Assembly: GCF_006874645.1 (NCBI RefSeq)
Contig: NZ_CP030082.1
Coordinates: 2,108,001-2,172,000, forward strand
Length of the DNA: 64,000 nucleotides
DNA from: Bdellovibrio sp. ZAP7
GTDB lineage: Bacteria > Bdellovibrionota > Bdellovibrionia > Bdellovibrionales > Bdellovibrionaceae
Reading direction: 5' to 3'
Numbering within the stretch: the first letter of the stretch is position 1; every line of letters starts with the position of its first letter. The translations under genes were made by a program, and so were the position numbers. Of this stretch, positions 47,008-50,440 are shown piece by piece. The notes under the pieces were generated by a model. The model was not told the origin of the DNA and did not search any database. It was given only the letters and a program-made list of their open reading frames with translations.

Positions 47008-48105
47008 ATGTTGAGTGAAATGAGTTCCAACATCAATCTTGCCAAACTGAACTATCAGCGCGGCCACTACCAGGAAGCTTGCGATAATTCCGAACGAATC
47101 TGCTCTGATGCAGAGGCCATCGGTGATTTGCAAAGCTGGTTGTTTGGCGTTCGCTTTTTGATTCAGGCAAGTTCTGAACTGGGAAAGCTTGATCACTTTC
47201 ATAAGCACTTCAGTAAACTTCTTGTCTACGAGAAAGAAAATGCCTCGTCCGAGATTTACGGCAAAGTCCTTCATAATATTGGTTTATGGAAGATGGCTCT
47301 GGGTGATAACACTCACGCGAAAGAATATTTCCAAAAAGCTTTGCATGAGTGCACGCAGGCACAGGACCTGGAAACTGTCTCCAGACTTCTGCAAGAACTT
47401 GCTATCGTCACAATGAATGAAAATCCTATCGAGGCTTTAAAGTACCTAGATAAGGCGTTGCTTTTAACTCAGGAATTAAATCTGGAAGAGATTCACACCA
47501 GCTGTCTGGTCGTAAAAAGCCATGTCTTCTTGGACGAAAAACGTGCCGACGACGCCTTGGATGCGATCTGGAAGGCTTACGAGAAAGCCCAACAGAACTC
47601 TCTGCACTATTTAATTGTCTATATCTTGGTGCAAATGGCGGCGGTTTACGAAGCTCAGGGCAAACGCAATGAGGCAGCGATTTATCGGTCCTTGGCGATG
47701 AAGGGTATGGGCAGCGAAGGCTCCACAAGACTTCGCACCGTGAAAGCTCAACTGGCGAAAGAAAATCACGTCTCGTCCGAAGCCGATCTGATCATCGATT
47801 CCACAAGCTTTAAAGTGAAAACAACCAGCAAGGGTTCTGTTGATTTTAAAAATCAACACATCCTTTTTGATCTATTAAAGCTGTTTGCCCAAAATCAGGG
47901 AATTCGTTTCACCAAATCACAACTTATCGAAAAAGTTTGGGGTTATGCTTATGATCCTGCCGTCCACGACAATCTAATTTACGTATCAATCAAACGTTTG
48001 CGCAACTTATTAGAACCCGATGCAAACTCTGCAAGCATCGTTTTACGCGATCGCAAAGGCTACTACCTGCCACCCAATATCACCGTGCGAGTTATTGCCA
48101 ATTAA
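47008..48105 (+). CDS. TPR-domain regulator with OmpR-type winged-helix DNA-binding domain
   Basis: 365 residues (ATG 47008; an in-frame ATG at 47020 is possible). The N-terminal two-thirds contains tetratricopeptide repeats (NIGLWKMALGDNTHAKEYFQ, AIVTMNENPIEALKYLDKAL). The C-terminal domain is a Trans_reg_C winged helix: DLLKLFAQNQGIRFTKSQLI, KVWGYAYDPAVHDNLIYVSI and RDRKGYYLP. It has no receiver domain and so is probably controlled by protein or ligand binding to the TPRs. It lies upstream of the small-peptide cluster on the same strand, but a target is not shown by the sequence. Confidence 0.88.
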   Translation: MLSEMSSNINLAKLNYQRGHYQEACDNSERICSDAEAIGDLQSWLFGVRFLIQASSELGKLDHFHKHFSKLLVYEKENASSEIYGKVLHNIGLWKMALGDNTHAKEYFQKALHECTQAQDLETVSRLLQELAIVTMNENPIEALKYLDKALLLTQELNLEEIHTSCLVVKSHVFLDEKRADDALDAIWKAYEKAQQNSLHYLIVYILVQMAAVYEAQGKRNEAAIYRSLAMKGMGSEGSTRLRTVKAQLAKENHVSSEADLIIDSTSFKVKTTSKGSVDFKNQHILFDLLKLFAQNQGIRFTKSQLIEKVWGYAYDPAVHDNLIYVSIKRLRNLLEPDANSASIVLRDRKGYYLPPNITVRVIAN

Positions 48106-48123
48106 TCCGTCCACGGATCGCTC

Positions 48124-48172
48124 GTCCAGAATGCGATTCTCAAATCCAATAATAAAGATCATCCTTCTGGAC
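48124..48172 (+). promoter_or_regulatory. spaced inverted repeat upstream of the small-peptide gene
   Basis: GTCCAGAA (48124-48131) and TTCTGGAC (48165-48172) are exact complements 33 nt apart. They lie about 65-110 nt upstream of the start predicted for the sigma54-like promoter, the distance of enhancer-binding-protein sites. Confidence 0.4.
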
Positions 48173-48207
48173 TCATTTCCAATATATTGATTTATAGCTC
48201 AAAAAAG

Positions 48208-48226
48208 TCCGGCACCGTTCCTGCTC
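48208..48226 (+). promoter_or_regulatory. sigma54-type promoter of the small-peptide gene
   Basis: CGGCACCGTTCCTGCT has GG-N10-GC spacing and matches GGCAC and TGCT of the RpoN consensus. A start near 48236 gives a 34-nt leader before ATG 48270, with a good AAAGGAG ribosome site. Confidence 0.5.
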
Positions 48227-48269
48227 TATCCCCTGACAACAACGCCAATCACGGCACAAAGGAGATACC

Positions 48270-48413
48270 ATGAACAAACTCGAAATTTTTGAAAACATTA
48301 TCGCCGAAAGAAACAAATCTGGAACTGGCGTCCGCGCAGTTTTGGAAAAATCCAGCATCCCTGCAGAAGTTCAGGAAATCATGAACTCTCGCAAAGCTAA
48401 AAAGAAAAACTAG
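48270..48413 (+). CDS. 47-residue basic peptide, candidate precursor of a modified peptide
   Basis: A 48-codon reading frame with AAAGGAGATACC before the ATG, a strong terminator 8 nt after the stop and a predicted sigma54 promoter. The product is MNKLEIFENIIAERN followed by a Lys/Ser/Gly region and a basic end (NSRKAKKKN); no signal peptide. The first 30 residues could be an amphipathic helix, as in RiPP leader peptides, and the last part a core. It lies just before a 2OG-Fe(II) oxygenase and an ABC exporter gene. It may equally be a small regulatory protein. Confidence 0.7.
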   Translation: MNKLEIFENIIAERNKSGTGVRAVLEKSSIPAEVQEIMNSRKAKKKN

Positions 48414-48421
48414 TTTCTTTT

Positions 48422-48455
48422 AAAGGGAGAGGCACCCCTCCTCTCCCTTTTTCAA
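48422..48455 (+). terminator. terminator after the small-peptide gene
   Basis: AAAGGGAGAGG and CCTCTCCCTTT form an 11-bp stem with a 7-nt loop, followed by TTCAATTTTT. A strong but possibly leaky terminator here would give excess peptide mRNA over the downstream oxygenase and exporter mRNA. Confidence 0.9.
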
Positions 48456-48476
48456 TTTTTAACATAGAGCAAATCC

Positions 48477-49067
48477 ATGAACTCATCTTTTCTGCAAAAT
48501 ACTTCAGTAAATCAATTTCAAATTCCCTGGAATCATTTTGTAATTGATAACTTTCTTCCCCAGAAACAATTCAAAAAAATCCAAAAACAGCTTTGCTCCA
48601 TAGTTGGTGGCTATCAGAAAAGAGAAAACGATTTATTCGATTTGAACTTTATGTTCGTCCCCGATCTTAATCTCGCCAAATTCTTCTTGAGCGACGATTT
48701 TAAATCGTTCTTAGAAGAAACAGTTCAGGAAAAACTCGAGCTCTACGAAGAAGGTCTCGTTCAATTAAGATTGATGACCCCCGCCTCGCCCGCAATGCCA
48801 CCACATATCGATGACCAGGAAGATGGGCGATCACTCGTTTGCATCTATTATCTCTCTTCGGACTGGCATTCTGACAAAGGTGGCGAGCTGTGGCTTCATG
48901 AAAACAACGTCAAAACTAAAAGAGAAGAATCAAAAGTAATCCAACCTCTGGAAAACAGAATGGTACTGTTTTTCGCAGATGATACGAACTGGCACAGTGT
49001 TACCAAAGTTAAAAACTGGAACCGTTATTCCATTATTTCAGAGTGGATTGTTCAGGAGGCTCAATAA
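48477..49067 (+). CDS. 2-oxoglutarate/Fe(II)-dependent oxygenase
   Basis: 196 residues. The jelly-roll iron site appears as PPHIDDQEDG (His and Asp of the HxD motif) and TNWHSVTKVKNWNRYSI (second His plus Arg for 2-oxoglutarate). The N terminus (WNHFVIDNFLP) is typical of prolyl-4-hydroxylase-like oxygenases. It should hydroxylate or otherwise oxidise a substrate with O2 and 2-oxoglutarate. It overlaps the exporter gene by TAATG. The nearby basic peptide is the obvious candidate substrate, by inference from gene order. Confidence 0.9.
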   Translation: MNSSFLQNTSVNQFQIPWNHFVIDNFLPQKQFKKIQKQLCSIVGGYQKRENDLFDLNFMFVPDLNLAKFFLSDDFKSFLEETVQEKLELYEEGLVQLRLMTPASPAMPPHIDDQEDGRSLVCIYYLSSDWHSDKGGELWLHENNVKTKREESKVIQPLENRMVLFFADDTNWHSVTKVKNWNRYSIISEWIVQEAQ

Positions 49068-50407
49068 TGTTGTCACCGTCAGTACTGAAATATGTAGACA
49101 GAATTTCTCAGGTAAAACTAATCGGAGTTACGACTGGCCAGCAATTGATTGCAGTCACAAGTACGTTCGCTTTAATGCAGGCAGGTCTTTCTTTAGGCGA
49201 TCAGAATTCTTTGATCAAGTGGTTGGCAATCGCCCTTGCCTGCCATGTTATTGTACCCTTTTTTGGATTGATCCAACGCCCTCTGGAAACTGCACTGGGG
49301 TTTTCAGCTTACAAAAATTTTCTAGAAGAAAACCTTTTGAACAAAGCTCAAAGACCCGGCATCTGGCAGGAAAAACATCAAAAAGAACTATTCATATCAT
49401 CCATTGGATCTGAGGCTGAAAACTATTTGGCCGTGATCATCTTTTTGGGTTTGGATCTATTTACTTTCATCCTATCCATCGGCCTGGGTGTTTTGGCCAT
49501 TGGCCTGACATTAGATACGACATTTATCCCCGCGTACATTATGTCTGGTTTGCTTTCATTTTTCGCATTTAAATATTTTCAAAGAATCGCAAAAGCAGCT
49601 GCTGAGTCAGAACAACACTCCCGAAGCAAGTTCGAAAGCTACCTATTTAAGGCCTGGGAAAACATCTTTTTCAAAAACTCTCACGTGGTTGCAAACTACA
49701 TCGATAACTTCAACTCCCATTTGAATGATGCGAAGATAAAATCACGTCATTCTTCCCTGATGAGCGAGACCATGGTGGCCGCTTTGACCTTTATCGCAAG
49801 TCTTCCAGTGATTATCGCCGTCTTTGTGGTTATTAGCCGACATAATGGGGATGTGAAAGTGATGGCGGCGATATTGGCTGCGATTCCTCGTCAGCTAAAT
49901 ATGCTAGCTACTTTTAGAACGATCTTCCAAACTGTGTCCTCTCTGGTTTCGTTCGAAGCGAAGTTTAGTACTATGAAGGCCAACGCAATCCTGTCAGAAG
50001 CAGTTCTTTCTTCACGTATTTCTGTTAAAAACATTACAGTCCAAAATGAAGTTTTCTCTACATTGGAAGATCTATCAAAGTCTTTATCTTCATCTCTACC
50101 ATCCAGAATTCAGATCAGAGGATCAAATGGTGCGGGAAAATCGACATTAATGCTTCATCTTAATGAATCACTTGAATCGTCATTTTACATTCCAGCTCAT
50201 CCACAATTTGAAATTGCAGATGCACAAGAAGGCTCAACGGGACAAAAAATGCTAAGACATATCGAGTATGCCGCTTCATTAGACAACAAACATCTTTTGC
50301 TGGACGAATGGGACGCAAACTTAGATCAAGAGAATATTTTCAGGATCAATGACCTATTAAATAGGATCAGCAAAGACAAAGTGATCATTGAAGTTCGTCA
50401 CAGATAA
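49067..50407 (+). CDS. ABC exporter with fused, shortened ATPase domain
   Basis: 446 residues from ATG 49067 (in TAATG with the oxygenase stop). Residues 1-about 310 have about six hydrophobic segments (LIAVTSTFALMQAGLSL, NYLAVIIFLGLDLFTFILSI, ALTFIASLPVIIAVFVVI), the topology of the exporter fold. The ATPase follows: GSNGAGKSTL (Walker A), EGSTGQKMLRHI in place of LSGGQ, HLLLDEWDANLD (Walker B). It is only about 120 residues long against about 220, with a reduced helical subdomain, as in PvdE/SyrD-type peptide exporters. A His after Walker B (IEVRH) is kept. It probably exports the modified peptide. Confidence 0.85.
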   Translation: MLSPSVLKYVDRISQVKLIGVTTGQQLIAVTSTFALMQAGLSLGDQNSLIKWLAIALACHVIVPFFGLIQRPLETALGFSAYKNFLEENLLNKAQRPGIWQEKHQKELFISSIGSEAENYLAVIIFLGLDLFTFILSIGLGVLAIGLTLDTTFIPAYIMSGLLSFFAFKYFQRIAKAAAESEQHSRSKFESYLFKAWENIFFKNSHVVANYIDNFNSHLNDAKIKSRHSSLMSETMVAALTFIASLPVIIAVFVVISRHNGDVKVMAAILAAIPRQLNMLATFRTIFQTVSSLVSFEAKFSTMKANAILSEAVLSSRISVKNITVQNEVFSTLEDLSKSLSSSLPSRIQIRGSNGAGKSTLMLHLNESLESSFYIPAHPQFEIADAQEGSTGQKMLRHIEYAASLDNKHLLLDEWDANLDQENIFRINDLLNRISKDKVIIEVRHR

Positions 50408-50408
50408 T

Positions 50409-50440
50409 AAAAAAAGCCCGGGGTCGCCGGGCTTTTTATT
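50409..50440. terminator. bidirectional terminator between the exporter gene and mpl
   Basis: AAAAAGCCCGG and CCGGGCTTTTT pair around a 5-nt loop, with A and T runs on opposite sides serving both convergent genes. Confidence 0.93.

Follow-up and report, generated by a model that had tools for sequence, protein, structure and literature searches.

Can one small peptide, a single oxygenase and a single exporter make up a pathway for a modified ribosomal peptide? The question is raised by three genes on the forward strand of the window, the 64,000-nucleotide stretch of Bdellovibrio sp. ZAP7 DNA analysed here (from a genome of 4.12 Mb in one contig; G000 among the genomes compared). The first-pass annotation had described a 47-residue basic peptide gene with a strong ribosome site and its own terminator, followed by a 2OG-Fe(II) oxygenase gene overlapping that of an ABC exporter with a shortened ATPase, and all of these elements were confirmed. 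The peptide gene (48270..48413, with ATG at 48270 and the stop ending at 48413) encodes a putative precursor of 47 aa (pI 9.9, net charge +4) and is preceded by the Shine-Dalgarno sequence AAAGGAG (48258..48264). A terminator-like hairpin of 11 pairs with a T-rich tail (48422..48450) lies in the gap before the oxygenase gene (48477..49067, 196 aa), whose stop codon overlaps the start of the exporter gene (49067..50407, 446 aa) in the sequence TAATG (49065-49069). At the right edge stands a bidirectional terminator, 50411..50437. AAGGAG or a near variant (AAAGGA, CGGAGG) was found upstream of the peptide gene at all eight loci compared, and a hairpin between the peptide and oxygenase genes at seven, with unlike sequences; it is missing only in G023. 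We read the hairpin as a terminator that probably lets part of transcription through.

On the evidence of its substitutions, the peptide gene is real and evolves as coding sequence. Compared between the two closest species, that of the window and G018, it differs by six synonymous changes and one non-synonymous change (pS 0.21, pN 0.01), and the pattern of the oxygenase and exporter genes in the same pair is much like that of the peptide gene. A profile of eight peptides, run against 141 genomes of the order, returned eight matches (E 4e-15 to 2.5e-25), all in one genus; in the other 133 genomes no match fell below E 0.05, the next lying at about 0.06. Conservation is highest in residues 20-38 (48327..48383), where the aligned peptides follow the motif G-V-x-R/Q-x-L-x4-I-P-x-E-[IV]-x-x-[LI]-[LMI] with G20, L25, I30 and P31 invariant at the eight loci, and the most variable parts are the linker (residues 13-19) and the tail (residues 39-47). 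An N-terminal half conserved against a variable C-terminal half had been anticipated, but the alignment did not bear this out, the mean entropy of the two halves being alike (1.32 versus 1.46 bits). Modelled as a single sequence, the peptide forms three helices (residues 3-17, 21-29 and 32-44; mean pLDDT 79), and a fold search with this model gave no significant match, SonA not being among the matches.

The oxygenase matches PF13640 above the cut-off (E 3.5e-15). Across nine oxygenase homologues H110, D112, H173 and R183 are invariant, leaving the HxD...H facial triad intact, and a profile search matched OGFOD1, the HIF prolyl hydroxylases and P4H. A structure predicted from the single sequence reached a pLDDT of only 32 and was unusable. 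A first search of contigs with the oxygenase as query gave no matches, and a phage origin was rejected, the oxygenase having no phage match. Because its relatives include prolyl hydroxylases, P31 of the peptide was considered as the modified residue. The invariant proline is more likely structural than a hydroxylation site, since this proline is also present in the peptides that accompany the G030 and G328 clusters described below, where no such oxygenase was seen.

The exporter combines an N-terminal membrane part of about five to seven hydrophobic segments with an ATPase that carries Walker A GSNGAGKS (50120..50143), the signature STGQ, Walker B LLLDEWDANLD (the region LLDEWDANLD, a hallmark of the exporter family, at 50297..50326) and a C-terminal end EVRHR. 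Homologues keep the Walker A motif, an S[ST]G[EQ] signature, DEWDANLD and a terminal EVRH. The ATPase is short, so that Pfam ABC_tran scores just below its cut-off (21.7 versus 25 bits). Weak matches were obtained to models of peptide exporters, for example NF045998 and NF050039. No peptidase domain was detected in a Pfam scan of the 446 residues, and the protein thus differs from peptidase-containing ABC transporters (PCATs) in having no N-terminal C39 domain; nor was a protease gene recognised beside the three genes.

The order of the three genes is conserved. Among the 141 genomes, a close homologue of the exporter (E below 1e-190) occurs in the same eight that encode the peptide, and the search for the three genes that the first-pass annotation had called for recovered peptide, oxygenase and exporter in identical order in seven of these eight peptide-bearing genomes. 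At these seven loci an intact, constrained oxygenase gene sits amid the peptide and exporter genes, and the oxygenase and exporter genes overlap or nearly abut. In the eighth (G025, L035:7990-8163) the oxygenase gene is mostly deleted, with short pieces left between intact peptide and exporter genes, and the oxygenase can therefore be lost. The peptide occurring widely apart from its partners had been named beforehand as evidence against a pathway: apart from the exporter it was never found, and apart from an intact oxygenase it was found once, in G025. The converse, exporters without this peptide, does exist within the wider exporter family, often beside other small ORFs and modifying enzymes. 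Oxygenase and exporter show only moderate agreement in their distances (Spearman 0.60, permutation p 0.06).

The genes lie at several chromosomal sites. The neighbours, whose names we assign by recognition and which we take to be mpl, divIC, eno, polA and a lipoprotein gene, show that the copies of G000, G018 and G019 adjoin mpl, that of G014 lies between divIC and eno, and that of G023 between polA and the lipoprotein gene; those of G012, G026 and G025 lie elsewhere. G014 and G023 also preserve the empty site, in which only 43 nt and 63 nt, respectively, separate the regulator gene from mpl and contain a bidirectional terminator of the same kind as that at the right edge in the window. The right-edge terminator therefore belongs to the host site, where it is shared with mpl, and not to the cassette. 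Taken together, the several insertion sites and the empty regulator-mpl sites show that peptide, oxygenase and exporter move together as a unit of about 2.2 kb, which we call the cassette, and that the regulator is excluded. No direct repeats flank the cassette ends and no transposase was found there. Three further associations were examined and rejected: the TPR/winged-helix regulator encoded upstream (47008-48105) as a cassette member, because it adjoins mpl in G014 and G023, where that site is empty; a tryptophan halogenase near the G026 copy (L028:5250-6863) as tailoring enzyme, because it is present in 11 of 24 genomes of the genus, six of them without the cassette; and tRNA-linked integration, because a tRNA lies near one copy only (G012).

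Which enzymes accompany this exporter elsewhere was examined by searching 369 genomes of the phylum, other phyla and plasmids with an alignment of nine exporters as query. Relatives were found in 25 of the 369 genomes, as well as in other phyla and on plasmids, and frequently have a small ORF upstream. A borosin-type methylase was found in four of the 369, and all four also carry the exporter. In G039 the cluster comprises a TP-methylase, two PF13640 oxygenases, an aKG-HExxH protein (matched at E 5.8e-8, short of the curated cut-off) and the exporter; in G047, one PF13640 oxygenase and an HExxH-motif protein join a TP-methylase and the exporter; and in G030, G328 and a Chlamydiae MAG, a TP-methylase and the exporter together with a radical SAM protein, the match of the latter in the Chlamydiae MAG being below the Pfam cut-off. 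For G328 and the Chlamydiae MAG the methylase assignment comes from inspection by eye or from a methylase homology search, not from Pfam. The best solved relatives of the G039 methylase are the borosin N-methyltransferases dbOphM/OphMA, MroMA and SonM.

Many other exporter homologues adjoin a TIGR04267 aKG-HExxH peptide beta-hydroxylase, two of these calls being above the NCBIfam cut-off and the rest resting on the HExxH motif in similar proteins at the same place. Acinetobacter plasmids are among these, with the annotations HEXXH peptide modification protein and ATP-binding protein on a plasmid copy. At L094, L099, L101, L102, L104 and L115, small ORFs of about 40-60 aa, candidates for precursors, lie upstream of the HExxH proteins and the exporter and have a MIAFD-like sequence at or close to their end; some of these loci, L094, L099, L101 and L102, encode in addition a conserved protein of some 365 aa with an NVHDHDFSA motif, for which the one example tested gave no Pfam match. 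A DUF6875 protein, which may be a further peptide-modifying enzyme, adjoins the exporter on a 7.9-kb plasmid of Moraxella osloensis (L142:4975-6956) and on a Methylophaga plasmid (L145:3068-5281). In G128 (L103:5545-8553) a 54-aa ORF, a 482-aa radical SAM protein and the exporter follow in a row, a RiPP-like arrangement, and in a Parachlamydiaceae locus (L112:8508-10383) several nearly identical small proteins are encoded in tandem downstream of the exporter homologue. A precursor or modifying enzyme is not recognisable beside every homologue. Paralogues near the genus group, namely the second copy of G012 (L092:7070-8482) and that of G116 (L093:7457-8794), look orphaned, no peptide or oxygenase being recognisable near either.

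The nearest relative of the cassette appears from these comparisons to be the G039 cluster. In the exporter tree the G039 exporter is sister to the genus group (99/94), a well-supported fork in a tree whose long branches are uncertain elsewhere, and the best match of the cassette oxygenase outside the genus is also in G039 (31% identity, E 4e-23). The peptides point more weakly in the same direction. In the small ORFs that adjoin the methylase clusters, R-x-L-x(2)-(I/V/L)-P-x-x-(I/L)-x-x-(L/I)-L recurs close to the C-terminus, and when a profile of four methylase-cluster peptides was scored against the eight genus peptides, 0-13 of 300 shuffles of each peptide reached its score. In the reverse search, a profile of the genus peptides run against 9,663 ORFs did not find the methylase-cluster peptides. 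We regard this as evidence, though weak, of a motif common to both groups, and not as proof of homology.

Compared with known systems, the cassette has the parts of a RiPP pathway: a small conserved gene for the presumed precursor adjoining a modifying enzyme, an enzyme of a peptide-modifying family (PF13640) whose best relative beyond the genus belongs to a borosin-type cluster, and a predicted dedicated ABC half-transporter that accompanies the peptide at eight of eight loci. What it does not display is a clean split of the peptide into recognition segment and core, since residues 20-38 are conserved and variable stretches lie on both sides of them (13-19 and 39-47). With the split borosins of the SonA/SonM type and the clusters of G039, G047, G030 and G328 it shares a short, separate precursor candidate; with those four clusters also the exporter family and a related peptide motif; and with G039 and G047 a PF13640 oxygenase. 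It is nevertheless not a borosin, because a borosin-type TP-methylase query found no match in the genome of the window and because the peptide has no five-helix domain: the SonA precursor consists of a five-helix BBD plus core (PMC8429565), whereas the cassette peptide has 47 residues and, in the single-sequence model, three short helices.

The hydroxylase systems described so far are likewise related in part. aKG enzymes in RiPP pathways have been described as rare, most of them carrying out hydroxylation (PMC12636437). Clusters of the aKG-HExxH beta-hydroxylases (TIGR04267; PflC/PosC, PMC12636437) have relatives that share with the cassette a small ORF, one aKG hydroxylase and a homologous exporter. 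Their enzyme, however, is of the HExxH kind, whereas that of the cassette is a PF13640 protein with HxD...H and no TIGR04267 match in an NCBIfam scan, and their small ORFs, often with MIAFD-like ends, bear no resemblance to the cassette peptide. The best NCBIfam match of the oxygenase is the RiPP oxygenase model YhhC (NF041706, cyclophane-containing peptides), of the same superfamily, but the score is 41 bits against a cut-off of 150 and the neighbourhood of the cassette held no recognisable radical SAM partner. In the pathway to the graspetide corallotide, CorC, likewise a member of PF13640, was found experimentally to hydroxylate a ribosomal precursor (PMC13097080); it acts after an ATP-grasp macrocyclase (PMC13097080), and none was recognised at the cassette. 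No description of a RiPP of Bdellovibrio was found in the open-licence papers searched.

We conclude that the cassette can be read, with a probability of about three in four, as a minimal RiPP-type pathway made up of a precursor, a putative tailoring oxygenase and a predicted exporter. The layout proposed by the first-pass annotation is well supported: peptide and exporter strictly co-occur, the genes keep one order wherever in the chromosome they sit, exporter homologues lie beside known RiPP enzymes, and there is the link to G039. The leader/core split that went with it was not supported. In such a pathway most transcripts would stop at the hairpin, so that the peptide would be made in excess over the enzyme. 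The helical motif conserved at residues 20-38 would be the docking site of the oxygenase, which would hydroxylate the peptide at one or more positions, and the ABC half-transporter, as a homodimer, would export the product. The weakest step is the role of this product, which is probably competition or signalling.

Other explanations make different use of the same genes. If the peptide were exported unmodified, like a bacteriocin or signal, the oxygenase would be an accessory enzyme with another substrate, as might be suggested by G025, where peptide and exporter persist beside a broken oxygenase gene. We think this unlikely, given that the other seven loci keep the oxygenase intact and constrained in mid-cassette, joined closely to the exporter gene, and that related exporters often accompany peptide-modifying enzymes, other aKG hydroxylases among them. 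The position of the peptide gene directly 5' of the terminator hairpin, with a Lys-rich tail near the hairpin at most loci, would also suit an attenuation leader, in which translation of the Lys-rich end controls the hairpin and hence oxygenase and exporter, both serving a small metabolite. It is residues 20-38 that are conserved, however, and not the tail, which is variable and not Lys-rich in G014 or G023; with the amino acids under purifying selection as well, a leader of this kind is very unlikely.

That the cassette is a toxin-immunity system or some other selfish element complete in itself, with a peptide acting inside its producer, strikes us as scarcely credible, even though the distribution is scattered, the insertion sites differ and no transposase is present. 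No immunity-like gene was recognised, the exporter is kept in every copy, and oxygenases are not known to belong to such elements.

Returning to the minimal RiPP-type pathway, the cassette looks from its genes like a G039-type borosin cluster that may have been reduced to hydroxylation alone. More tentatively, and with slightly more doubt than belief, we propose that it represents a RiPP class whose precursor is modified by a 2OG-Fe(II) oxygenase acting alone, a class that would have arisen from a borosin-type cluster through loss of the methyltransferase and spread as a mobile cassette of ~2.2 kb, and that the exporter family serves several RiPP chemistries not otherwise related, perhaps recognising a precursor motif shared among them. 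Against the RiPP-type reading itself we count the missing leader/core split, the broken oxygenase of G025, the lack of a recognised protease gene, the weak motif link, the orphaned exporters of G012 and G116, and the moderate agreement of distances. If that reading is true, three genes suffice for Bdellovibrio-type bacteria to make modified ribosomal peptides, and a single exporter family joins borosin-type clusters, radical-SAM clusters and clusters with aKG hydroxylases of two unrelated kinds. Through its DEWDANLD hallmark the exporter would then be a handle to RiPP precursors that are too short and too varied to be found otherwise.
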